Below are positions 13,701-58,033 of a DNA stretch of 64,000 nucleotides, piece after piece. Position 1 is the first letter of the stretch; each line of letters opens with the position of its first letter. Position numbers and translations under genes: made by a program. Source of the DNA: Paracyclopina nana (lineage: Eukaryota; Arthropoda; Copepoda; Cyclopoida; Cyclopettidae); assembly GCA_019096065.1 (NCBI GenBank), contig JAGUCH010000009.1, forward strand, positions 1,498,001-1,562,000, written 5' to 3'. The notes beneath the pieces were generated by a model. That model saw only the letters and a program-made list of their open reading frames with translations, did not search any database and had not been told where the DNA came from.

Positions 13701-14566
13701 GACTAGAATCAAGAAAAAGCATTATTTACAATTTTCTTGCTTCCAAAAATCCAATCTGCCAAAATAATGCAAAAGAAAACTCTAATGCCCTGTTCATGTA
13801 TAAAGAATGCCTTAAGGTATGGAAAAAATTGTCATAAGGAAAAGTGAATCTGTTGCTGACTGCCACTCTACGAGATCAGCTTGGGGCCGAGCAGCGTTTT
13901 TAATGGCAATTTTTGCTATTTTGTCTCATGGTTTTCAGCATATTTCAAAAAAAACGAGCTTTCATCATGTGTTTATTTGATAAAAAATGAAGTTCAACTT
14001 TTGATTTTGCTCAAAAGGACTAAAATGTGGAGCTCTTAATAGCCAAATTTAGATTTGTTTACTTTCAGGTTGACTTAAAGTCGATCTGATTTTTTTAGTA
14101 TCAGCTGGCGCTTGTCATAAGACAATTTTACTCCTTTCCTGAATCTGTTTTTCGTGCATTTTCCTAAGGAGTTTGGGGCGTACATGAACAGGACATAATA
14201 TTTGCTTAGCCAAAAGAATTTTTTTCGCTCCCTTTATGCTAGGTTGATTTTCACAGAAGAGCGATTATTTGGAAGATTTATGCAAATAGAAACCACAAAT
14301 TCTTGCACTACACACTTTGCTCTTGACCTTTTCACATTCTTATATACCAAACTCCCTAGGGAAATTGCTAAGGAGAGCTTTTCTTTTCTCAGCAAAGCTG
14401 TGATTACTATCAAGGCTCCACCTCCGTACGAAATCTTTCCCGATTGCAAAAATAAATTGGGTCATTTTTATCAGCCAGAGCCTTTTTTACTCACCATGGA
14501 AGTGATTCCAAAGAAAATGGAGGCTGTCAGAAGACTACAGCACATACACGTGGACAGCAGTGCCAT
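10760..14566 (-). CDS. Four-transmembrane protein with long cytoplasmic tail (LAPTM/pasiflora-like topology)
   Basis: Seven exons: 14495-14566, 13258-13312, 12863-13047, 12664-12810, 11191-11658, 10977-11063 and 10760-10924. Together they code 392 residues with every junction in frame. The ATG at 14566 is preceded in frame by a stop, fixing the start. The protein opens MALLSTCMCCSLLTASIFFG and has four hydrophobic segments within about 145 residues: the N-terminal one, PAYLLALSYFFLSLLSLSML, LLLAWLLLNLLLMC and the following stretch, and VGLWVLRVSISVCGMVA. A CC pair just before TM1 and the short loops resemble arthropod tetraspan proteins of the LAPTM/pasiflora type; this is a topology match, not a proven family. 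The last 230 residues are a Tyr/Ser/Gly-rich hydrophilic tail. Introns 1 and 4 each carry a short transposon. Confidence 0.8.
12049..12443. mobile_element. MITE, AGGGCG family, 395 bp, TAA duplication
   Basis: The element begins AGGGCGATCACATATTCG and ends with the inverse of AGGGCGTTCCCGTATTGG, and is flanked by TAA on both sides (12046-12048, 12444-12446). It is filled with subterminal words such as CTAACTTAACTTGACT in both orientations. It lies in intron 4 of the four-TM gene. A second, right-truncated copy lies at 38361-38711. The 3-bp TAA duplication fits PIF/Harbinger-type transposition. Confidence 0.8.
13786..14195. mobile_element. MITE, TGCCCTGTTCATG family, copy 1 (410 bp)
   Basis: Termini TGCCCTGTTCATGT and ACATGAACAGGACA are inverted repeats with one mismatch, flanked by TAA on each side (13783-13785, 14196-14198). 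The copy is intact and lies in intron 1 of the four-TM gene. Sister copies are at 18265-18669 and, interrupted by another element, at 24611-25862. The 3-bp TAA duplication suggests PIF/Harbinger-like mobilisation. No coding capacity. Confidence 0.9.
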
Positions 14567-17083: not shown

Positions 17084-18264
17084 CTTACGAACTCCATAAA
17101 TGCATATTTTCATGCAAAACACGCTGAATTAGATAGTCTGAAGGGTTGAACTGTACAGTTTTACAGCCTAGACAAGGCCAAGCCTATTACAAAAATAGCA
17201 AGTACATTGTTATGCTAAACAGGTCCACAGTTTAAAGTGACCCTGGCTTCAATTACACCATGCACACACCCACAAAAAGCAACTTTTTATGATCTAATTG
17301 TTGCTTTACTCAGGCAATTGCTGACATGTTTAGTATTTGAGCAATTCTTACCACCTTGTTGTTGATTTGACGGAATTGTTGGCGTTTTTGCGTTGAACTG
17401 AAGCACTATGTAGTGCCTATATCACCATCTACCTGGCAAAGGTGGAAATCATGCGCGCACGCGCGCACGCATCAGCTGCTTTGACAGGCCGGAAATGAGT
17501 GCCCGCATGCTCAGCCCGCCGTATTATTTCATTGCGGAGATTTCCCTCCCGTTTGACTGCTGAGATAAGAGCCAAAAGAGGGAAGAAGAAATCTTGATCT
17601 GGCTAGCACGCCGGACATCATTCGTCACCACAGCCATTATAATCACAAGAACTTGCCCACATTGGGCACAGATTGCGAAAAAGAGGAGGAGAAGAAGTTT
17701 CTCTGACGAAAAAACTTTTTTAACAAGCTTGGGAATCCATCAGATAAAGGTTGCAGTACAACCTCTCCTTTTATTCTTTTGAATTGTACATGCTTATATG
17801 TAGTGGCTTGCTAAAAAACGGCTTTTGTAGCTTAATTCCTGCCAAATCAAACGGCGCAGAACTTTTAAAAGTGCTTCCAAAAAATCAAGTTTTTGCTCTT
17901 TTTAGACGAGCAGTGCATTAAATGTATGCTTCAGTTGTGATAACTTCCAAGTGCATTTTATCTCTAATGGGCTCAGAAATTAAAAATAGCCTCGCAATGC
18001 TGGATTCTACAAAGGAAAAAGTCCAGAAAATATGATGAATATGCTTCACTACTTGCTCATGAGCTAGTTGTCATATTTACCTATTGTATTCAAATACAGC
18101 TTGCATCAAATTGAAGGAAAAGTGAAACTCAGTGTTTGCATAAGGATTCATGATCTTGTAAATGTCACTAGCTCAGGTGTGAATAGAAAGAGGCAACATT
18201 TTGTATAACTGAGTATTACTATGACACAACAAGACACTAGAGAAATGTACTTGACGTGGTTTAA
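17084..18264. other. Intergenic, nothing firm
   Basis: A purine-rich, possibly coding 38-codon stretch ends at a TGA near 17706, but no splice context or family supports it. The remainder shows no gene. Confidence 0.4.
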
Positions 18265-18669
18265 TGCCCTGTTCATGTATTAAGAATGCCTTAAGGTATG
18301 GAAAAAATTGTCATAAGGAATAGTGAATCTGTTGCCGACTGCTACTCTAGGAGTTCAGCTTGGGGCCGAGCAGCGTTTTTAATAGCAATTTTTGCTATTT
18401 TGTCTCATGGTTTTCAGCTTTTTTTCAAAACAAACTAGCTTTCTTAGCGTTTCTTTGATCTAGATGAAAAACTAGTGATTTTGCTCAAAATGCCTAAAAT
18501 GCGGAGTGCTTAGTTGCCCAAATTAGATTTGTTTACTTTCCAGTTGGCTTAAAGTCGATCCGATTTTTTTAGTATCAGCTGGCGCTTGTCATAAGACAAT
18601 TTTTCTCCTTTCCTTGAGGTGTTTTTCATGCATTTTCCTAAGGAGTTTGGGGTGTACATGAACAGGACA
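18265..18669. mobile_element. MITE, TGCCCTGTTCATG family, copy 2
   Basis: A 405-bp sister of the element at 13786-14195, with the same termini and flanking TAA at 18262-18264 and 18670-18672. The internal sequence aligns along its whole length with scattered substitutions. Confidence 0.9.
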
Positions 18670-18802
18670 TAAATGCTTGCTAACGAATGGTTATGAGTCG
18701 AAGGAGGTTATTGCAATGTTGCATGATGTTTCTCAAATTGTAATTAATCAATTTCATTATGCGAAGCATAACTGTAATTTCTTCCACGTTGTCATCAACT
18801 TA

Positions 18803-19024
18803 GGCCCTGTTCACCTGCAATAATATCAGCAAAATAACGCGCGATATTATGCTTATAATTGCAAATATCCGGTATTTGTGAAATCATTTTTTATATTTTG
18901 ACTTCGGAATCGATCTATTGGTACCAAAAGCCATTCTACTTCAAAAATAAAATTCTCAGTTTCTCAGTACTTCTCTCCAATATTTTGCCGAAATAACGGC
19001 TAAAATAAGCAGGTGAACAGGCCC
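18803..19024. mobile_element. MITE, GGCCCTGTTCACCTGC family, copy 1 (222 bp)
   Basis: Termini GGCCCTGTTCACCTGC and GCAGGTGAACAGGCCC are inverted repeats with one mismatch, flanked by TTA on both sides (18800-18802, 19025-19027). Copies of the family lie at 30448-30669 (TTA) and 28441-28649 (TGA). The TWA-like 3-bp duplication again points to a PIF/Harbinger-type source. Confidence 0.9.
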
Positions 19025-19029
19025 TTATT

Positions 19030-24610: not shown

Positions 24611-25862
24611 TGCCCTGTTCATGTATTAAGAATGCCTGAAGGAATGGAAAAAATTGTCATAAGGAAAAGTGAATCTGTTGCTGACTGCCACTCTACGAGT
24701 TCAGCTTGGGGCCGAGCAGCGTTTTTAATGGCAATTTTTGCTATTTTGTCTCATGGTTTTCAGCATATTTCAAAACAAACCAGCTTTCATCACGTGTTTC
24801 TCTGATAAAAGATGAAATTTAACTTTTGATTTTGCGCAAAAGGACTAATATCCCGTTCATCTGCCCCCAAATTCCCTACAATAATGCATGCCGAACGCCT
24901 TACGGAAAGGAGAAAAATTGTCTTATGACAAACACAAAAGTAAACTTCTGCTGATGCTAATACTTTGGAAAAAAACGGGTCAATTTTAAGACTATTGAAA
25001 AGTAAACACTCAAAATTACATTTAAATTTCATTGCCAAACTGGTTACTTTTGAATCCATATTCATCACACAAATTCGTATGAACCAACTCAAAAATTGCA
25101 GAGTTATTACGTATAAGATATAGCAGAAATAATCAAAGTTTTTTCTGAATTTTGCCCTAAATTTGTTAACTCGATTCCTGGTTCAACTAGTTGAGAAGCC
25201 CTTCTTAAGTGGTTTGATAGCAAAACTCCTTTGCCTTATGACAATTTTTTACTTTCCGAAAAGCAACTTTGCACATATCCCGTTCATGTGCAAAGTGTCA
25301 TAAGGCAACGGAGTTTTGCTATCAAACAACTTAAGAAGGGCTTCTCAACTAGTTGAACCAGGAATCGAGTTAACAAATTTAGGGCAATATTACGATAAAC
25401 ATTGATAATTTCACCTGTTTCTTACATGTAATAACGCTGCAATTTTTGAGTTGGTTCATGTGAATTTGTGGGAAACATATTGATTCAAAAGTAACCAGTT
25501 TGGCTCTGAAATTGAAATAAACTTTGAGTGTTTACTTTTCAATAGTCTTAAAATTGACCCGTTTTTTCCTAAGTATTAGCATCAGCAGAAGTTTACTTTT
25601 GCGTTTGTCGTAAGACAATTTTTCTCCTTTTCATAAGGCGTTCGACGTGCATTATCGGAAGGAATTTGGGGGCACATGAACGGGATATAAAATGTGGAGC
25701 TCCTAGTAGCCAAAATTAGATTTGTTTACTTTCAGGTTGACTTAAAGTCGATCGGATTTTTTTAGTATCAGCTGGCGCTTGTCATAAGACAGTTTTTCTC
25801 CTTTCCTGAAGGTGTTTTTCGTGCATTTTCCTAAGGAGTTTGGAGCGTACATGAACAGGACA
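24611..25862. mobile_element. MITE, TGCCCTGTTCATG family, copy 3, interrupted by another element
   Basis: The outer termini match copies 1 and 2, with TAA at 24608-24610 and 25863-25865. Removing the inner element at 24849-25687 and one TAA leaves a 410-bp sequence that aligns with copy 1 across the junction (copy 1 reads AGGACTAAAATGTGG uninterrupted). This gives the relative age: outer element first, inner element later. Confidence 0.93.
24849..25687. mobile_element. 839-bp near-palindromic foldback element nested in a MITE
   Basis: Begins TATCCCGTTCATCTGCCCCC and ends with its complement (GGGGGCACATGAACGGGATA), with TAA duplications at 24846-24848 and 25688-25690. The whole element is nearly one inverted repeat: arms of about 415 bp meet near 25276, where the terminal motif TATCCCGTTCATGTGC occurs again in the centre. 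That internal terminus suggests two elements joined head to head or a duplicated solo end. No coding capacity. Confidence 0.92.
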
Positions 25863-28435: not shown

Positions 28436-28440
28436 ATTGA

Positions 28441-28649
28441 GGCCCTGTTCACCTGGTCAGTTATTGGCAATATTTTGGCCAAATGTTACTAAAAAGTGGC
28501 CATTTTACGATTTTTTTGGCTATTTTTCCACTTTTGTTTATCGGCCTTATTAGGCAACACATAAGGCCATTTAATTTTTATCCTTATTTAGCTGTTGTTT
28601 TGCGTTATTTTCGCATAGCAACGGTAATAATAAACAGGTGAACAGGCCC
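28441..28649. mobile_element. MITE, GGCCCTGTTCACCTG family, diverged copy (209 bp)
   Basis: Termini GGCCCTGTTCACCTG and CAGGTGAACAGGCCC, flanked by TGA at 28438-28440 and 28650-28652. The interior differs strongly from the copies at 18803 and 30448, so only the ends are shared: a related subfamily moved by the same machinery is the simplest reading. Confidence 0.85.
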
Positions 28650-29257
28650 TGAGTACGAGTAGCCTTTTTTCATATTTAAAACTCTTCATGGTTTTTTTTA
28701 TATCTTAAGGCGCTGAAAAAATGAGAAAAATGGGCCGCGAATCAAGCTTATTTTAAGTGTGTCATTTCAGTGCAAATGATCGATCAAAAATTATCTCAAA
28801 CCTCAAAAATATGAGCATTTCACCGGTTTATGACATACAGCTAACTTCCTGTCTGTGTCCCATATTATAAGGTGATCTTCGACCTTTTCATACACCAACA
28901 ATTATACACCTCTCACCATTGTCTGCTTCAAACCTTTCAGCTTGATAACATTCGGTACATTAGCTCCCAAATGTGCCTTAATGGCCAATTTTACTGATGG
29001 CTTTAGTACAATTTGAGGCATTAATCTCCATATTGTGCACAGATTCAATGAATAAAGAATAAAATTACGCTCAAGCAAAACTATCACCTCAGTCATTCTG
29101 GTATATTTGAAATTGGAAAAAAAACTCTACACGGTGATGTACCCAATCTGGTATTATGTAAAAAGATGCTAGAAGCTTGTTCTCACAAAACTCAGTAAGG
29201 CAGGCGGTAAGCAAAGCAAGGCACTTTGGAAGCTCATAACTCAGTGAGTACTGAGCC

Positions 29258-29876: not shown

Positions 29877-30447
29877 AATAAGCCCCATTTCCGGTCAAAC
29901 AGTCCCAATGCTGCAAATGAAATGAAAAATGCCCTTGCGATCATACACACGTGCCCCACTAATGACATTCAATTGCCTGCATTATTCAATAATACCACAG
30001 CCTTGGTTATTTTTGGTTTCTGATGACCTAAAAGTTGCATGCTACGCATAGTTTAACCGCGTGCGCATATAGTACGTAATTTTGGGTCTGCTTTGCATGC
30101 GGATAAAGTTGTTTCGAGAATAATGCAGAGTTTACAGCCTGTAATTCATGGCAATGGCTGCAGGCCTGGTGACCTAGCATTACACATGCTACAACTTCTA
30201 CTCAAAGAAAAATGTGCTTTTCTGCTTTTTTTCTAATTTGCAATTTATTATGCTGAGTAATGAGCCTGTTCACTCAAGGTGAAATGACCAAGGGCAGAAA
30301 TGTTAAGTGAATTTGCATTAGTATCCCTGGTCACATTTCATCATCAAATGCCCAATTACTCCTCATTTGGAGAGAAGGTTTTGTGTGGTGTTCATCTACC
30401 GAGTCAAATTACGAATTCTAATAATATTTCTTCCCGAAGCTAATTTA

Positions 30448-30669
30448 GGCCCTGTTCACCTGCATTATTATCAGCAAAATAACGCGCGATATTATGATGA
30501 AATTTGCAAATATCTGGCATTTGTAAAATCATTTTTTAGATTTTGACTTCGGAGTCGGTCTATTGGTACCAAAAGCCATCCTACACCAATATAAAAATTC
30601 TCAGCTTCTCAGTATTTCTCTCCAATATTTAGCCAAAATAACGGCCATAATAAGCAGGTGAACAGGCCC
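30448..30669. mobile_element. MITE, GGCCCTGTTCACCTGC family, copy 2 (222 bp)
   Basis: Near-identical in length and sequence to 18803-19024, with TTA at 30445-30447 and 30670-30672. Confidence 0.9.
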
Positions 30670-30679
30670 TTAGTTAAGC

Positions 30680-31754
30680 ATTATTTCAATTTAAAAAAGA
30701 AAACTGAAAATTAACCGCGTTTTTCGCATTTTCATAAAATCTTGGTGACGAACTACTCAATTGACCAGGAAAATGAGCAAAACTGAACTTGTGGCAGCTA
30801 TAGCGCGCTCCACTTACGAAACTGGCTGCAATAGCAAAATACCAAGAGGAATGAATGAAAATCTAGATTATTTTGCCGTGGAAACTTCCATGGCTTTATT
30901 ATGTCAAAAACTTGCTTTTTTCCACCAAAAATACTCTTGTTGCGTGCTTTAGGCACAAAACAAAGGAGGCATGTTATGCACTTGCTTTCTTTCATATTAA
31001 CTCGCATGTAGGTGAATCCTGCTGCTGTATTGGAATACTATGTACTTACTTATACACTTAGATACAGTGTGAAGTGACATCCACAGATTTTGCCTCTCTC
31101 ACTCACTCTCACAAAAAAGCCTCTAAACTTTCCAGCCAGGAAGAGAAGCCACCAAATAATTCTCTAGTATCTTTAAAGAGCTTTGGAAACAAAAGTTTTA
31201 GTTGCTGGAAATTTCAAGCAAGGTCAACTTTCCATCAACTTTTCCTGAAGTAATCTGATTCCTCCAAACAGAATCTGAGATCATTTCCCACCATAATTTG
31301 ACAATGATAATCAATTGATAGGTGTAACATTGTTTAAGGATAAGTTTATACGCCCTCTAGAAACTCCATACATTGCTTGAATGATCCTAAAGCTGCCTTG
31401 AGGCCACACAGAATATTTGTAATTCTTTTTTTTATTGTGTGATATGGCAATGTTTTAGGTAATGAAAATGAGGTCAAGGCAATCACATGAAAGTGAGGGC
31501 AGGCGTGTTGGGTCAAGCATCCACTTTCAAGAACAGCGCCCTCTACAATATTTTAACTACTTAACTTTTACCATGTTTTTTTGCCTTCTTCAGCATAGAT
31601 AAACAGACTTTTCGACCTATCGCGTTATCTCTATACCCATGTCGATTTTTTTGGCGATTTCTAAGATGAACGGGGCTGTTTTGGCATTGAGCCAAGTAAA
31701 TAGCGCGAGCAGTTGATATGCTACAGCGGCGTTTTTGCCAGGTTCACTCCAATC
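30680..31754. other. Region upstream of the SmydA-like gene
   Basis: No separate gene is seen. It should hold the promoter of the downstream SET/MYND gene, but no TATA or initiator is clear enough to call. Confidence 0.4.
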
Positions 31755-34700
31755 ATGAGTAGTAGTCCAATTTGCTTTTTGTGCCAGATTCCAGCGGATA
31801 ATGCGTGCAAGGATTGTAATCTGCCCTATTGCTCTGAAGGTCACCTGAAGGCTCACAAAGGCCAAAATGAGGTATTACAATACGTAGCATTTCCTTTTCA
31901 GTAAAAGTAGTATGATTCATCAAATGCTATTATCAATGCTACTTAAGTGTGATTGTTACGTGATGATCCCAATGCAACACAGATTTAACGCTTCAGGGTC
32001 AAATCGATTCTTTTTCAGAGCCATTGTTGGCCATTCAAAGTCATGCAAACCAAAGATAAGGGCAACGTACTTGTAGCTTCTCGACGAATTCGAGCCACAG
32101 AGGCAATTCTAGAGGAATATCCAGCTGCTTTTGGTCACCATGCCAAATCGAAGCCAACTTGCATGGAATGTCTCAACCTGTCTAAGGAGATGCAAAAATG
32201 TACCCATTGTGGCTTTTTGCTCTGCTCAAACGACAAATGTGAGTACTGATGGCTTTGATGAAAATATTTTTCTTTCAAGCTGAGTTTCAGTTTTGAGGGC
32301 TGAAACCTTCATGGAATGTTGGCTACTGATTCTCATTGTTGAGTAATTTGATTTGATTGTATTTTGGCGCCAAAAGTCTTAAGTTTTTCACTTAGAAGAA
32401 AATGTCTTTAGGTAGCGCCACATTTTTTTATTGGCACTTGGCATATCGAGATTGCACATGTCTGGCCTTTTGTGCTTCATTCAGAGCTCAATGGCAGCCT
32501 CAAAAGGAGCTGACGCTGGCCTAATTTGGCAGTGGCCAGATAACCAGCGCACAGAATCCCCGAAATAGGCACGCCCGCATTCATAGAGCATCACAATTGC
32601 AACAAGAAATCACAGCACACAGAATGCCCAAAATGGGCTCGCCCGCGATTGAGCATCAGATAAAGAAAACACAGCAATCCCAAGAAAAAAGGCCACCCAA
32701 ACCTTCCCGCGCGCGCGCGCGTGAGGGCCCTCAAGCTGGAGTAAAACCTTGTCTTTCTTCCCGCGTCCTCACTGTGCTCACCCAGAGCCGCTGGAAGCGA
32801 CCCGGGCCGGCGTCCTCACCCTACGCCACCCAAAGCTTCCCAGGCGCGCGCGCGCGAGGGCCCACAAGCTACAGAAAAACTTTGTCTTTCTTCTTGTGTC
32901 CTCACTGTGCTCACCCAGAGCCGCTGGAAGCGACCCAGGCCGGCGTCCTCACCCTACGCCACCCAAAGCTTCCCGGCGCGCGCGCGCGAGTGACCTGTAG
33001 CAACAAAAAACTTTGGTCTTTCCTTTCGCGTCCTCACTGTGCTCACCCAGACCCGCTGGAAGCGACCCGGGCCGGCGTCCTCACCCTACGCCACCCAAAC
33101 ATTCACGCGCGCGCGCGCGAGGGCCCTCAAGCTTCAGAAAAACTTTGTGTTTCTTCCCGCTTCCTCACTGTGCTCACCCAGAGCCGCTGGAATCGACCCG
33201 GGCCGGCGTACTCACCCTACGCCACCCAAAGCTTCCCAGGCGCGCGCGCGCGAGGGCCCACAAGCTACAGAAAAACTTTGTGTTTCTTCCCGCTTCCTCA
33301 CTGTGCTCACCCAGAGCCGCTGGAATCGACCCGGGCCGGCGTCCTCACCCTACGCCACCCAAAGCTTCACGCGCGCGCGCGCGCGAGGGCCCTCAAGCTT
33401 CAGAAAAACTTTGTGTTTCTTCCCGTGTCCTCACTGTGCTCACCCAGACCCGCTGGAAGCGACCCGGGCCGGCGTCCTCACCCTACGCCACCCAAAGCTT
33501 CACGCGCGCGCGCGCGCGAGGGCCCTCAAGCTTCAGAAAAACTTTGTGTTTCTTCCCGTGTCCTCACTGTGCTCACCCAGACCCGCTGGAAGCGACCCGG
33601 GCCGGCGTGCGCACCCAACGCCGACCAAAGCTTCCCGGGCGCGCGCTAGCGGTCTCGAGGGCCCTGTAGCAACTAAAAAACTTTCCTTCTGGCCATTATA
33701 TAATATGCAATTTTAATAACCGGAGACTAGTTCTGTCAAAACTAGCTGAAAAAAGGTCAAACGCAAATTTCACTCCTAGCTCAAAAAAGTTGCCAAAAAA
33801 TAAGATAGTTTCAGCTAGCATTTTGCACTAGGAGACTAGTCCTACCAAAACTAGGTGAAAAAAGACCAGACTTTGGCCTTTGTCAAAAAGTGCAATTTCG
33901 CTCAGGCAATTATTCACGTTACGCGAGTTTTGCTCATAGCTCAAAAAAGTTGCCAAAAAATATGCTAGTTTCAGTTAGCATTTTGCACTAGGAGACTAGT
34001 CCTATCAAAACTAGGTGAAAAAAGACAAAACTTTGGCCTTTGTCAAAAAGTGCAATTTCGCTCAGGCAATTATTCACGTTACGCGAGTTTTGCTCATAGC
34101 TCAAAAAAGTTGCCAAAAAATATGCTTGTTTCAGTTAGCATTTTGCACTAGGAGACTAGTCCTACCAAAACTAGGTGAAAAAAGACCAAACTTTGGCCTT
34201 TGTCAAAAAGTGCAATTTCGCTCAGGCAATTATTCACGTTACGCGAGTTTCGCTCATAGCTCAAAAAAGTTGCCAAAAAATATGCTAGTTTCAGTTAGCA
34301 TTTTGCACTAGGAGACTAGTCCTATCAAAACTAGGTGAAAAAAGACCAAACTTTGGCCTTTGTCAAAAAGTGCAATTTCGCTCAGGCAATTATTCACGTT
34401 ACGCGAGTTTTGCTCATAGCTCAAAAAAGTTGCCAAAAAATATGCTAGTTTCAGCTCGCATTTTGCACTAGGATTCTACTCCTATCAAAACTAGGTGAAA
34501 AGACCAAACTTTGGCCTTTGTCAAAAAGTGCAATTTCGCTCAGGCAATTATTCACGTTATGCGAGTTTCCCTCCTAGCTCAAAAAAGTTGCCAAAAAATA
34601 TGCTTGTTTCAGTTAGCATTTAGCACTAGGAGACTAGTCCTACCATAATTAGGTGAAAAAAGACCAAACTTTCGCCTTTGTCAAAAAGTGCAATTTCGCT

Positions 34701-37700
34701 CAGGCAATTATTCACGTTACGCGAGTTTCGCTCCTAGCTCAAAAAAGTTGCCAAAAAATATGCTTGTTTCAGTTAGCATTTAGCACTAGGAGACTAGTCC
34801 TACCATAATTAGGTAAAAAAAGTCCAAACTTTGGCCTTTGTCAAAAAGTGCAATTTCGCTCAGGCAATTATTCACGTTACGCGAGTTTCCCTCATAGCTC
34901 AAAAAAGTTGCCAAAAAATATGCTTGTTTCAGCTCGCATTTTGCACTAGGATTCTACTCCTATCAAAACTAGGTGAAAAGACCAAACTTTGGCCTTTGTC
35001 AAAAAGTGCAATTTCGCTCAGGCAATTATTCACGTTACGCGAGTTTCGCTCATAGCTCAAAAAAGTTGCCAAAAAGTATGCTAGTTTTTGCACTAGGAGA
35101 CTAGTCCTACCAAAACTAGGTGAAAAAAGACCAAACTTTGGCCTTTGTCAAAAAGTGCAATTTCGCTCAGGCAATTATTCACGTTATGCGAGTTTCCCTC
35201 CTAGCTCAAAAAAGTTGCCAAAAAATATGCTTGTTTCAGTTAGCATTTAGCACTAGGAGACTAGTCCTATCAAAACTAGGTGAAAAAAGACCAAACTTTG
35301 GCCTTTGTCAAAAAGTGCAATTTCGCTCAGGCAATTATTCACGTTACGCGAGTTTCCCTCCTAGCTCAAAAAAGTTGCCAAAAAATATGCTTGTTTCAGT
35401 TAGCATTTAGCACTAGGAGACTAGTCCTATCAAAACTAGGTGAAAAAAGACCAAACTTTGGCCTTTGTCAAAAAGTGCAATTTCGCTCAGGCAATTATTC
35501 ACGTTACGCGAGTTTTGCTCATAGCTCAAAAAAGTTGCCAAAAAATATGCTAGTTTCAGCTCGCATTTTGCACTAGGATTCTACTCCTATCAAAACTAGG
35601 TGAAAAGACCAAACTTTGGCCTTTGTCAAAAAGTGCAATTTCGCTCAGGCAATTATTCACGTTACGCGAGTTTCGCTCCTAGCTCAAAAAAGTTGCCAAA
35701 AAATATGCTAGTTTCAGTTAGCATTTTGCACTAGGAGACTAGTCCTATCAAAACTAGGTGAAAAGACCAAACTTTGGCCTTTGTCAAAAAGTGCAATTTC
35801 GCTCAGGCAATTATTCACGTTATGCGAGTTTCCCTCCTAGCTCAAAAAAGTTGCCAAAAAATATGCTTGTTTCAGTTAGCATTTTGCACTAGGAGACTAG
35901 TCCTATCAAAACTAGGTGAAAAAAGACCAAACTTTGGCCTTTGTCAAAAAGTGCAATTTCGCTCAGGCAATTATTCACGTTACGCGAGTTTTGCTCATAG
36001 CTCAAAAAAGTTGCCAAAAAATATGCTTGTTTCAGTTAGCATTTAGCACTAGGAGACTAGTCCTACCATAATTAGGTGAAAAAAGACAAAACTTTGGCCT
36101 TTGTCAAAAAGTGCAATTTCGCTCAGGCAATTATTCACGTTACGCGAGTTTTGCTCATAGCTCAAAAAAGTTGCCAAAAAATATGCTTGTTTCAGTTAGC
36201 ATTTAGCACTAGGAGACTAGTCCTACCATAATTAGGTGAAAAAAGACCAAACTTTGGCCTTTGTCAAAAAGTGCAATTTTCCTCAAGCAATTATTCACGT
36301 TACGCGAGTTTCGCTCATAGCTCAAAAAAGTTGCCAAAAAATATGCTAGTTTCAGCTAGCATTTTGCACTAGGAGACTAGTCCTACCAAAACTAGGTGAA
36401 AAAAGACCAAACTTTGGCCTTTGTCAAAAAGTGCAATTTTGCTCAGGCAATTATTCACGTTACGCGAGTTTCCCTCCTAGCTCAAAAAAGTTGCCAAAAA
36501 ATATGCTTGTTTCAGTTAGCATTTAGCACTAGGAGACTAGTCCTATCAAAAGTTTTGGGTGAGCAGAGTGAGGACGCGAAAGGAAAGACCAAGGCTCATT
36601 ATCTTCCGCGTCTTTGATCGTGACTTGGTTGCGGTTGTTATCGCTTCTTATTTACTGACATCGCAACCTCGTCAGTAAATAAGAACCGATAACAACCGCA
36701 ACCATGCTACGATCAAAGATGAGGAAGATAATGAGCCCAAGTTTTTTGTTGCTACAGGTCCCTCGCGCGCGCCGGGAAGCTTTGGTCGGCGTTGGGTGCG
36801 CACGCCGGCCCGGGTCGCTTCCAGCTGGTCTGGGTGAGCACAGTGAGGACGCGAAAGGAAAGACCAAGTTTTTTGTTGCTACAGGACCCTCGCGCGCGCG
36901 CGCCGGGAAGCTTTGGGTGGCGTAGGGTGCGCACGCCGGCCCGGGTCGCTTCCAGCAGGTCTGGGTGAGCACAGTGAGGACGCGAAAGGAAAGACCAAGT
37001 TTTTTGTTGCTACAGGACCCTCGCGCGCGCGCGCCGGGAAGCTTTGGGTGGCGTAGGGTGCGCACGCCGGCCCGGGTCGCTTCCAGCAGGTCTGGGTGAG
37101 CACAGTGAGGACGCGAAAGGAAAGACCAAGTTTTTTGTTGCTACAGGACCCTCGCGCGCGCGCGCCGGGAAGCTTTGGGTGGCGTAGGGTGCGCACGCCG
37201 GCCCGGGTCGCTTCCAGCAGGTCTGGGTGAGCACAGTGAGGACGCGAAAGGAAAGACCAAGTTTTTTGTTGCAATAGGTCCCTCGCGCGCGCGCGCCGGG
37301 AAGCTTTGGTCGGCGTTGGGTGCGCACGCCGGCCCGGGTCGCTTCCAGCGGGTCTGGGTGAGCACAGTGAGGACGAGAAAGGAAAGACCAAGTTTTTTGT
37401 TGCTACAGGACCCTCGCGCGCGCGCGCCGGGAAGCTTTGGGTGGCGTAGGGTGCGCACGCCGGCCCGGGTCGCTTCCAGCAGGTCTGGGTGAGCACAGTG
37501 AGGACGCGAAAGGAAAGACCAAGTTTTTTGTTGCTACGGGTCCCTCGCGCGCGCGCGCCGGGAAGCTTTGGTCGGCGTTGGGTGCGCACGCCGGCCCGGG
37601 TCGCTTCCAGCTGGTCTGGGTGAGCACAGTGAGGACGCGAAAGGAAAGACCAAGTTTTTTGTTGCTACGGGTCCCTCGCGCGCGCGCGCCGGGAAGCTTT

Positions 37701-40579
37701 GGTCGGCGTTGGGTGCGCACGCCGGCCCGGGTCGCTTCCAGCGGGTCTGGGTGAGCACAGTGAGGACGCGAAAGGAAAGACCAAGTTTTTTGTTGCTACG
37801 GGTCCCTCGCGCGCGCGCGCCGGGAAGCTGTGGGTGGCGTAGGGTGAGGACGCTGGCCCGGCTCGCTTCCAGCGGGTCTGGGTGAGCACAGTGAGGACGC
37901 GAATGGAAAGACCAAGTTTTTTGTTGCTACAGGACCCTCGCGCGCGCGCGCCGGGAAGCTTTGGGTGGCGTAGGGTGAGGACGCTGGCCCGGCTCGCTTC
38001 CAGCTGGTCTGGGTGAGCACAGTGAGGACGTGAAAGGAAAGACCAAGTTTTTTGTTGCTACAGGTCCATTTTGGGGATTCTGTGTTCTGTGCAGTCATGA
38101 TGCTAATTGGATGCGGGCGTGCTTATTTCGGGAATTCTGTGTTCTGTGCTTGATTCGTTTGTGATGCTCAATGGATGCGGGCGTGCCTATTTCGGGGATT
38201 CTGTGCGCTGGATATCTGGCCACTGCCCCTAATTTGGCCTTGTTGAGCCTTTAAAGCCTTCATTAGGCCTCTTCCTTCTTTTTTTCTATGTCCATTGTTG
38301 ATAATTGGCTCAAGTACAATTTCGCACTATCCTCTTTTGAACCCATCCAATCGAGCTCTTAGGGCGATCCCATATTCGAATTTTTAGTCAAGTTACGTTG
38401 CTAAAACAGCAACCTTACTTGATAAGTTAAGTTCAGCTTGTTCTAGCCAAGTTCTGTTCTTTGCTGACACGCCAACGCGTTGTACAACAGCAGCTGATGA
38501 GCAAAGTTAGCTTTTCTCAATTAAGCGAGCTTCAGTTACTACTCATAAGAGAACACTTTTTGTAGCTAAGTTCAGTTTGGCAACTGAACGTAGCTAGGCA
38601 AGCAAGCTTGTACTACATAAAATCAAGCTAAGTTAAGTTCTACCAACATAAATATCTGGGAACGGAACTGAACTAAACTTAACTTTCTACCTAACTTAAC
38701 TTGACTTGACCTAATTTCGTAATTTAATTTCACGTCAGCCTCGGCCAAAAAGCTGGCCCCTGCCAGGCCAGCAAAATTTTTGGACAGGCTGTAGTCACCA
38801 AAGGCTGCCCTACAGCCAAACTAGTGACAACTAAACCATAGTCACAATGGCCTTTGGACCAGCCAAAAATGCAAATACGAGCAATATTGCGGCCTTCATG
38901 ATTGAAAATCTTTCGATGCAACACTTATATAAGGGAGCGAATGGACGCCTTTCAGCGGCAGTAACTTGGCCTTATATAGTAGCATATTCTTTAGGAGTTG
39001 TTGCAATGCTTCAATTGAGTTATTGGCAACAATGGATGCAACTCTGTGTCTTTTTTGCTGGCTCACTGTCATGATATATACGGAATGATTGGAGATGACA
39101 AGCTCGCAGAAGTGCGCAGTTTTGTCATATATCTGTGCAACGCAGAACTCTGCGTCATGTAGAAAAACAAATTGACGACATTTTGCCATTTTTCGTAAGA
39201 TACCATTTTAAGACGATAACAAATTAGATTACTCTTCCATTTTGGATTTCAGTCCGCGAAACTGACATTAACCAATCATTCAGAATTTTTCAAAAAAGTC
39301 TTGAATTGTGTTTTGCTTTGTAAGGCCTGAGGGGGAATCTGCATGAAGCCGAGTGTGCAATTTTCGCCACCTTTGGCTGCCAAAATCGGGACTTTGAAAT
39401 GAATGACAACTGCTTGGAGCTGATGGCTGAGTTGCCAATCAGGGTGTTACATCTGCGAGAGTCTGACCCTGAAATGTGGGAGAAGGTGAATCTTCTCATG
39501 GACCACTACGAAGCCATGAAAGAGGATGAAAAATTGGTCTGGGCGACTCAAGTGGTTGAGCCCATTGTCAAAAGTGGCCAGCAGCCCACGTGGACTTTTG
39601 ACAACATTTTCAGAGTCATTGGCATTATCAACACAAATGCAGTAAGCCAAGGGCTCATCAAGGGCTGTGCCCTTTACCCCACCTTTTCTTACTTGTCGCA
39701 CAGGTTCCTCTCTCTTTCTTTATTAATTCTTTTTTTTGCTTTTTTGCCTTGCAGCTTCGCTCGAATTTATCCAACGGCTGGCTAGCTTGGGTTTAACTTA
39801 TTTTCATTTTCAGTTGCGTCAGCAATGCCCGATTCCAGATCCACACTGATCGGAAAATCGTTGTGACAGCTCTGGCAGATATTGAGGCAGGTGAGGAAAT
39901 CACGACCAAATATTTGCCCACGTCTGCAGGCAACACGAGGCGCAGGGAGAAAATTCGAAATAATTGGAATTTCGACTGCGTGTGCGTGAGATGTGAGGAT
40001 GCCACTGAATTGGGGACTTACTTTGATGCCATCAAATGCAAAAATTGCGCATTCCAAGGGCTGATGCTGCCAAAGGTGGCTTTAGACATCCACAGCCCCT
40101 GGGTGTGCCAAAATTGCGATGAAACAGTCAGTGCTGCCACTGTCATGGCCTTCCTATCCAAAATGGAAGAAGAGGCTGAGAAATTAGAGAAATTCCATCT
40201 GCAGGCGGAATTGGAGGAGAAACTGGCACAATGGGGACAATTCTTGCATGACAACCATTACCTGATGGTGATTATGAAGAAAAGGCTCCTGGATGTGCTT
40301 CAAGTGAAGGCTGAGGTCTCAAGGGAGAATTTAGAGAGACAAATCCAGTTAGGCACCGAATTGCTGCAAATAGCCAACTTGTTAGAGCCAGGCTTCAGCC
40401 TGAAACGAGGCAGACTGCTACGCCAACTTCATTTACCAACTCTCCTGCTAGCCAAAATGGACTTGAAAGAGAAAAAAATCCACATGGAGGAATTCGCCAG
40501 ACGTACCAAACTCGTCGTGAAAAATATGAAAGAAGCTGTGCAATGCATGGAGAACTTTGATCTTGATGGAGAACTTTGA
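31755..40579 (+). CDS. SmydA-like SET and MYND domain protein
   Basis: Four exons: 31755-31871, 32019-32238, 39325-39703 and 39814-40579, coding 493 residues. A zinc-binding MYND finger opens the protein (CFLCQIPADNACKDCNLPYC, then SEGH, H and C). The SET domain is split around it: GNVLVASRRIRATEAILEEY before a second Cys cluster, LSHSCVSN (the usual NHSC motif) spanning the exon 3/4 junction, then GEEITTKY and the post-SET cysteines CVCVRC...KCKNC. This is the layout of SMYD lysine methyltransferases, and SHSCVSN instead of NHSCxPN fits the arthropod SmydA/msta group. Substrate unknown; activity doubtful without the Asn. Intron 2 is 7.1 kb because of a huge foldback insertion. The stop lies inside a fresh 19-bp duplication. 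Confidence 0.9.
32700..33680. repeat. GC-rich 131-bp tandem array, left arm (about 7 copies)
   Basis: Each unit contains CCTCACTGTGCTCACCCAGA, an RCCGGCGT block, CACCCAAAGCTT and a pure (CG)5-8 tract, then AAAACTTTG. Unit spacing is about 131-132 bp. Because 131 is not a multiple of three, the unit is open in several frames and gives long spurious reading frames. The array is far richer in GC and CpG than all surrounding DNA. The unit is the reverse complement of the array at 36550-38070. Confidence 0.95.
33720..36549. repeat. AT-rich 160-bp tandem array (about 17-18 copies)
   Basis: Units of about 160 bp (a few of 154-158) contain CTAGGAGACTAGTCCTA, CAAACTTTGGCCTTTGTC, AAAAAGTGCAATTTCGCTCA, GGCAATTATTCACGTTACGC and GCTCAAAAAAGTTGCCAAAA. 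Variants (CTCATAGC/CTCCTAGC, GTTAGCATTTTG/TTAGCATTTAG, and a GATTCTACTCC type) recur in mixed order, indicating repeated unequal exchange rather than one expansion. The array separates the two inverted 131-bp arrays. Confidence 0.95.
36550..38070. repeat. GC-rich 131-bp tandem array, right arm, inverted (about 10 copies)
   Basis: Same unit family as 32700-33680 but on the opposite strand, read here as CTGGGTGAGCACAGTGAGGA ... GAAAGACCAAGTTTTTTGTT ... (CG)n ... GGGAAGCTTTGG. Units are spaced at exactly 131 bp over most of the array, so this arm is more homogeneous than the left one. A partial unit marks the junction with the 160-bp array at 36550, and a 145-bp hairpin element interrupts the first unit. 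Confidence 0.95.
36593..36737. mobile_element. 145-bp hairpin element, GGCTCATTATC family, CAA duplication
   Basis: Begins GGCTCATTATCTTCCGCGTC and ends with the complement; nearly the whole element is one hairpin. It interrupts a satellite unit at GACCAA^GTTTTTT, leaving CAA on both sides (36590-36592, 36738-36740); the intact neighbouring units give the empty site. Related to the longer element at 57279-58033. Confidence 0.93.
38361..38711. mobile_element. MITE, AGGGCG family, right-truncated copy
   Basis: Starts AGGGCGATCCCATATTCG and follows the element at 12049-12443 closely until about 38711, where the right terminal repeat is missing. Lies in intron 2 of the SmydA-like gene just outside the foldback element. 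Confidence 0.8.
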
Positions 40580-57278: not shown

Positions 57279-58033
57279 GGCTCATTATCTTCCGCGTCTT
57301 TGATCGTAGCATAGTTGCGGTTGTTGTAGGTTCTTAATAACTGTCGAGGTTGCGATGTCAGTAAATAAGAAGCGATAACAACCCACATTGACTTGGCAAA
57401 GGACCTAACCCAAACTACTTACAACACCCCAAAATTATATATTTTCTGAAAGCTTATGTCCCAATGGTTTATTTGGTGATAAAAAATAAAAATCCTGGCC
57501 TATCGCTTCCAATAACATAAAATTTTTAAAAACATTTTGCGCAAAAATGGCTCATTTTTTGGGGATAATTAGCTTCAATGGCCCCCCCCCCCCCCCCCCC
57601 CTCATATTCATCAATTGGGCAAGGTAGGTGGACTCACCTTCCCACCTACCTAGGGTAGGTAGGTGAGGGTAGGCAGGTGAGGGTAGGCAGGTGGGTAGGT
57701 GGGTAACCTGGTAGCTTAGTGAACCAGTTGGCGCAGGCAAGTTAAGTCAATTTTTTAAGCCAAAAAGCTGCAACTACACAAAATGTCCACTCGTAATTTC
57801 TGAGTCAAATCTCAAAAAATATTAAACTGTAGGTGCTAGACGTTTTTGAAAATTTTATGTAATGGGAAGCCATAGGCCAGGAATTTTAAATTACTACCAA
57901 ATCAACCCTAAAAACATAAGCTTTCAGAAAATGTATATTTTTTGGGTGTTGTAAAGAGTTTGGGTTAGGACCTCCTTCAAGTCAATGTGAACCGTAAGCA
58001 TGCCACGATCAAAGACGCGGAAGATAATGAGCC
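57279..58033. mobile_element. GGCTCATTATC-family element, 755 bp, ATT duplication
   Basis: Starts GGCTCATTATCTTCCGCGTC and ends with the inverse, ACGCGGAAGATAATGAGCC, with ATT on both sides (57276-57278, 58034-58036). It shares its ends and first inner segment with the 145-bp hairpin at 36593-36737. The middle contains a run of 20 C (57582-57601) and a GGTAGGTGGGTA-type simple repeat to about 57705, plus internal inverted copies of about 80-100 bp (TGTCCCAATGG... region against 57840-57970). Confidence 0.88.

Follow-up and report, generated by a model that had tools for sequence, protein, structure and literature searches.

In an intron of a SMYD-type gene of Paracyclopina nana we identified a mobile element of 5,700 bp, which runs from TIR to TIR (terminal inverted repeat) at positions 32528 to 38227 of the 64,000-bp stretch of DNA that was analysed (the window). 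It is very probably a foldback DNA transposon of class II (cut-and-paste type), non-autonomous and mobilised in trans. The element carries the TIRs and the fixed 8-bp target-site duplication of class II elements, and the long inverted tandem-repeat arms around a middle domain of the foldback type. The group to which it belongs is best called a new, multi-lineage foldback family, with different satellites as arms and a common satellite core.

Tandem repeats make up 89% of the element in the window. Three arrays were delimited by TRF: a GC-rich 133-bp satellite as the left arm (7.2 copies, 32692-33646, plus strand), an AT-rich 160-bp satellite as the core (17.6 copies, 33761-36551, plus strand) and a 131-bp satellite as the right arm (10.2 copies, 36737-38064, minus strand). 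The right array is the left array in inverted orientation: 157 arm pairs were found, and the 25 longest, of 102-139 bp each, are 87-94% complementary. Left arm and core are joined by non-tandem sequence (33647-33760), and a palindromic, MITE-like insertion of 145 bp (36593-36737) occupies the junction of core and right arm. The outer ~160 bp beyond the arrays are inverted as well (~164 bp per side). On the left, the TIR and outer domain span 164 bp (32528-32691, plus strand) and begin with GGCAGTGGCCAGATA; on the right they span 163 bp (38065-38227, minus strand), end with TATCTGGCCACTGCC and contain a 64-bp subterminal direct repeat (38078-38205). The TIR 30-mer matches the window twice, with no match expected from 100 shuffles. 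The original prediction of an inverted satellite layout (131 bp, 160 bp, inverted 131 bp) with further inverted ends outside the arrays is thereby confirmed by TRF and by the complementarity of the arms.

The element lies between two copies of CCTAATTT, at 32520-32527 and 38228-38235, which sets its limits at 32528 and 38227. An 11-bp direct repeat, CCTAATTTGGC, had been proposed at both edges. We rejected this reading, since the extra GGC belongs to the TIR on the left and to the flank on the right, and since 23 other copies show exactly 8 bp. Perfect 8-bp duplications at different sites were found for 24 of the 29 TIR pairs examined, a count that omits unpaired or nested ends (L010 at 4968, L013 at 4803, L026, L027, L028, L037 at 3866, L045 at 578 and L046 at 3455). 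Among 28 pairs, that of the window included, 24 duplications are perfect, one has a single mismatch and three pairs (L015, L048 and L010/L011) lack one; the 29th pair, L016, is likewise without a duplication, and its right end is diverged. Wherever the flanks match, the duplication is 8 bp long. The duplicated octamers share no fixed sequence, with A or T at positions 3-6 in 84 of 96 cases.

Copies of the element are spread through the genome of the same species (a 92-Mb assembly in 10 contigs), from which 40 stretches were retrieved by genome position for comparison. The assembly contains 80 matches to Chitin_bind_4, a cuticle family, as befits an arthropod, and a nematode origin considered at first was dropped; an SL1 search was empty here, as it was in the controls. 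The terminal 163 bp gave at least 41 matches (40 of 87 candidates scored). The TIR 30-mer, with up to three mismatches allowed, marked 99 ends (52 forward, 47 reverse) and a 25-mer 108 ends (55 and 53), while the reversed-pattern control yielded 0 in both cases; the diverged TIR of a further lineage added 26 ends (13 and 13; control 0). TIR ends are present on all nine large contigs. Some ends are nested, and 44 of the 132 tabulated ends stand outside any adjacent forward/reverse pair closer than 60 kb. The prediction of a mobile foldback insertion with satellite arms, which absence of any second copy with the same ends was to overturn, is upheld by these copies and their 8-bp duplications.

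Several loci depart from the simple paired arrangement. At one place (G000:C2:175400-204893) there are six TIR ends that have diverged slightly and are all in forward orientation, and two reverse ends (G000:C2:371049-378824) are found ~170 kb from them. The lineage-A loci L010/L011 (G000:C8:1299212-1310590) and L012/L013 (C1:11039710-11054202) each bear an extra nested TIR end. Their outer flanks are mutual reverse complements over the 10-14 bases compared; the two are perhaps a duplicated or rearranged locus.

At least four lineages make up the family; their TIRs are related, their arm satellites differ. Lineage A (the window copy, L009, L014 and others) has arms of 131/133-bp units, lineage B (L021-L025, L041-L044) of 110/140-bp units and lineage C (L029-L040, L045-L048) of 9/18/27-bp units. 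Lineage D came to light in 1.2 kb of sequence next to a 160-bp array on contig C7, where a 105-bp arm array follows the TIR GGTAGTGGCCAGGTGTCCAG. The 160-bp core array recurs in all four lineages and is absent from some copies; several elements of lineages A, B and C have a 169-bp array next to it. Across 25 elements measured (the window copy and 24 others), the tandem-repeat fraction ranged from 0.19 to 0.96, so not every copy of the family is mostly satellite.

The 160-bp unit has at least 480 matches in the genome (40 of 104 candidates scored), and many of the sampled arrays belong to lineage D. Among 26 listed array positions, 22 are flanked by forward and reverse TIR ends within 32 kb, counting some positions that share one element and some flanking TIRs of unlike lineage; three further positions have one TIR end only and one has none. 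For the 131-bp arm unit, 170 matches were obtained with all 27 candidates scored, and among the matches listed all fall at lineage-A loci except C5:7113119 (81% alike). Shuffle tests related some of the satellites to one another. A common core, oriented alike, links arm units A and B as well as B and D (the score was reached by 0 of 200 shuffles in each case), and a weak one links A and C (1 of 200). In the same shuffle-tested comparison, no common sequence was found for A-D, B-C or C-D. The comparison of arm unit B with the 169-bp unit was borderline (5 of 200), and the two core satellites of 160 and 169 bp are unrelated (109 of 200).

The common core of the A and B arm units contains a 14-bp motif, CCTCA(C)TGTGCTCA. 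As CCTCACTGTGCTCA, this motif occurs 18 times in the window (17 exact), always inside the element, against 0 expected: seven times on the plus strand at 32767-33575, about once per left-arm unit, and eleven times on the minus strand at 36560-38027 (10 exact, one with one mismatch). Out of 17 lineage A/B elements ten were examined, and in all ten the left arms carry the motif in forward orientation only and the right arms in reverse orientation only. By analogy with the arm repeats of Galileo, we infer that it is a candidate transposase site. A transposase encoded elsewhere would recognise the TIR, and the same enzyme probably recognises repeated sites in the arms, for which CCTCACTGTGCTCA, at about one per arm unit and pointing inward from the nearer end, is the candidate. 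A derivation of the arm units from the TIR was considered and is unsupported, as the arm units showed no similarity to the TIR domain in any of the four lineages (80-208 of 300 shuffles reached the score). This dissimilarity speaks against the simplest account of how the arms arose. Since the arm units are unlike the TIR and the pairs A-D, B-C and C-D share nothing, the idea of binding sites rests on the conservation and polarity of the motif in lineages A and B.

Turnover of the arrays can be followed in L009, a sibling of the window copy in opposite genomic orientation. The ends of the two copies are identical (164/164 and 163/163, 0 changes in 327 positions), and the palindromic insertion is common to both, with 169 of 170 bases matching over the aligned stretch around it. 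Read in the same orientation, the arrays hold 10.2, 7.3 and 44.2 copies in L009 versus 7.2, 17.6 and 10.2 in the window, so that siblings with identical ends show a fourfold difference in the size of one array. Monomers of corresponding arms are 89.4% and 93.9% alike between the siblings, whereas those of the left and right arms of the window element are 83.8% alike. The two arms of this element thus change independently, without being held to one sequence. The family as a whole does not always behave in this way: the two arms of L014 are 89.0% alike, as much as monomers within one of its arms (87.9 and 89.0%). Arm and core arrays would expand and contract fast, probably through unequal exchange or replication slippage, and lineages would arise where arms are replaced and TIRs and core persist.

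From these comparisons we tentatively propose a modular exchange of satellites, a model that we consider plausible and still some way short of probable. The TIR, the polarised arm motif and the 160-bp core (often together with the 169-bp array) would be retained through exchanges of entire arm satellites. Elements mobilised in trans might in this manner breed and disperse new satellite DNAs, and the arm arrays might be selected for transposase loading, their length setting mobility. How satellites originate and spread, and why foldback transposons have internally repetitive arms, are open questions. One 92-Mb genome with many copies that have related tips and differing arms is a natural series for asking whether arm arrays aid transposition, and the same series bears on the rate of array growth and on transposons as nurseries of new satellites.

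A transposase within the family was sought in its open reading frames. Pfam scans of 30 ORFs, of which 28 come from seven TIR-bounded copies, revealed no DNA-transposase domain, and neither an autonomous copy nor a transposase gene within a TIR pair was detected among the copies scanned; other copies have no long ORF outside the arrays. Six ORFs were without match in PHROGs. Ten further ORFs, from L024, L033, L035, L039 and L040, gave one sub-threshold match (OST3_OST6, E 0.041), and one of two ORFs of L027, a locus with a single TIR end, matches the host enzyme family mit_SMPDase. Among the large ORFs of L017-L020 and L046-L047 are some with domains of retroelements (reverse transcriptase, RNase H and protease; Pao peptidase and integrase). 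L017-L020 (G000:C3:1636274-1666723) is a 30-kb family member with a perfect 8-bp duplication and a nested retroelement, in which one ORF encodes reverse transcriptase and RNase H and another has a weak match to a retroelement-type protease.

Two superfamilies were weighed as the source of the enzyme. Membership in the P superfamily, as a relative of Galileo mobilised by a P-type transposase, is conceivable and rather unlikely. RNaseH_N of the P type is matched 11 times in the genome, and the arms of Galileo are likewise long and internally repetitive (PMC3573991, PMC3688188). The nearest of these matches nevertheless lies 34.7 kb from a tabulated TIR end, no transposase is linked to the family copies, and the Galileo duplication is 7 bp, in contrast to 8 bp here. 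Membership in the Mutator (MULE) superfamily, which contains Tm1 and, in the view of those who described it, Tetris, is likewise conceivable and doubtful. According to PMC4079207, most foldbacks seem to be Mutator elements and Tetris duplications measure 8-10 bp, and one of the five MULE-domain matches in our genome lies 4.4 kb outside a TIR end. On the other hand, the four MULE loci examined (3.3 kb each) are without family TIRs, two of them resemble single genes with extra C-terminal cysteine motifs (judged by eye), and the duplications of our family are uniformly 8 bp where flanks match; for Mutator elements (FB, Tm1) the pattern is 8-10 bp, mostly 9 bp. No MULE or P-type gene among these matches is located between family TIRs. 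The hAT dimerisation domain and the KDZ (Zisupton-like) transposase had 0 matches in the genome, a result shared by every control genome. Our reading as a non-autonomous class II element mobilised in trans carries no superfamily name; P, Mutator, Merlin and others are candidates.

The best reading is that the family works like Galileo and Tetris. The original prediction had rightly named Foldback/Galileo elements as the nearest parallels; its statement that the insertion is not a standard element type was too strong, because foldbacks with tandem-repeat arms are published (Tetris, Galileo and Tm1). Tetris is a foldback of Drosophila virilis for which only three structurally complete copies are given (PMC4079207). 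As there described, it is non-autonomous, with an outer domain followed by a tandem-repeat domain in each arm and a non-coding middle, its near-identical copies vary in arm copy number, and no transposase has been assigned to it. Tetris has, by the same source, one arm repeat of ~220 bp with 37 bp in common with the outer TIR domain, whereas our family has four lineages, different arm satellites, a common satellite core, an arm unit unlike the TIR and many copies. For Galileo, PMC3573991 and PMC3688188 describe long tandem-repeat arms whose repeat number varies independently on each side, subfamilies, and a transposase THAP domain shown to bind repeated arm sites. They also describe transposase-bearing copies, arms of up to ~1.26 kb and two or three internal repeats, in contrast to arrays of up to 44 units (5.8 kb) and no linked transposase here. 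Since the duplication is 8 bp and not 7 bp, we do not file the family as Galileo. Helentrons are not known to have a TIR pair or a target duplication of the kind seen in our foldback family. Those of oysters carry satellite arrays and are likewise mobile elements that disperse satellite-like arrays (PMC7492417); in our family, by comparison, the arms are inverted satellites. Tm1, a Mutator/Foldback element of root-knot nematodes, resembles the family in its composite TIRs, variable short tandem repeats and unequal TIR lengths, and differs from it in mostly 9-bp duplications, ~14-bp repeats, non-inverted terminal motifs and known copies with a putative transposase (PMC3169594). A foldback family of the present kind was not described in the open-access literature searched (titles and starts of abstracts). 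One of four 15-16-mers of the TIR occurs in each of three papers, which by title and abstract all deal with human cells, and these matches were taken as chance or primers.

The location within an intron, as proposed originally, was verified for a SMYD-type gene. The host intron (32239-39324, plus strand, GT...AG) is 7,086 bp long: an exon ends at 32238, the donor GTGAGT follows at 32239, the acceptor AG ends at 39324 and the next exon starts at 39325. The reading frame is maintained across the splice junction, which falls inside a codon for a cysteine of a MYND-like finger (judged by eye); Pfam scored no MYND domain for the split finger. The exons, joined by hand with the junction between two downstream exons guessed, match SMYD3 chains across the intron (E 6.9e-11, residues 3-250), and the ORF at 39797-40576 has a Pfam SET match (3.8e-5). 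A further zinc-finger-like exon lies at the start of the gene (31704-31901), with weak, sub-cut-off matches to HIT, B-box and MYND. We infer from the gene model that the intron is transcribed, and the intronic copy would be spliced out with it.

It had further been proposed that the nascent RNA could pair over ~1 kb, and folding bears this out. With a 40-nt linker substituted for the ~3-kb core, the arms formed 1,008 predicted arm-to-arm pairs with a longest perfect helix of 54 bp (-2,188 kcal/mol), whereas six shuffles of the right arm gave 84-331 pairs (-1,124 to -1,151 kcal/mol) and the right arm turned round gave 122 pairs. Folding so far above the shuffles makes the physical hairpin claim sound, and a substrate for Dicer or RNA editing is possible on physical grounds. 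That the inverted arms are kept for the sake of a long hairpin RNA that, once diced or edited, silences the family or has an effect on the host is in our opinion quite improbable. The predicted pairing and the location inside an intron speak for it; the same outcome is expected of any intronic foldback transposon, though, and Rfam gave no match in the intron at the gathering threshold. The arms of the window element, alike to only 83.8% in their monomers, show no sign of pressure for perfect pairing. In the transposon reading that we prefer, a ~1-kb hairpin from RNA of the intronic copy would be a by-product. That the structure is an artefact of assembly, or an inverted block of satellites that does not move, is scarcely credible given the perfect duplications at different sites and the TIR ends across all nine large contigs, even if such arrays are hard to assemble and their copy numbers may be wrong.

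Other repeats were observed elsewhere in the window. A second foldback at 24848-25688 is without the family TIR; it consists of nested inverted pairs (83-94% complementary) that form a long palindrome, and adjoins repeats common to 13783-14198 and 18262-18672. Three short MITE-like elements with the inverted ends AGGCCCTGTTCACCTG/CAGGTGAACAGGCCCT are located at 18798-19029, 28436-28654 and 30442-30676. Finally, a longer relative of the palindromic MITE-like sequence at the core/right-arm junction is present at 57279-58033.
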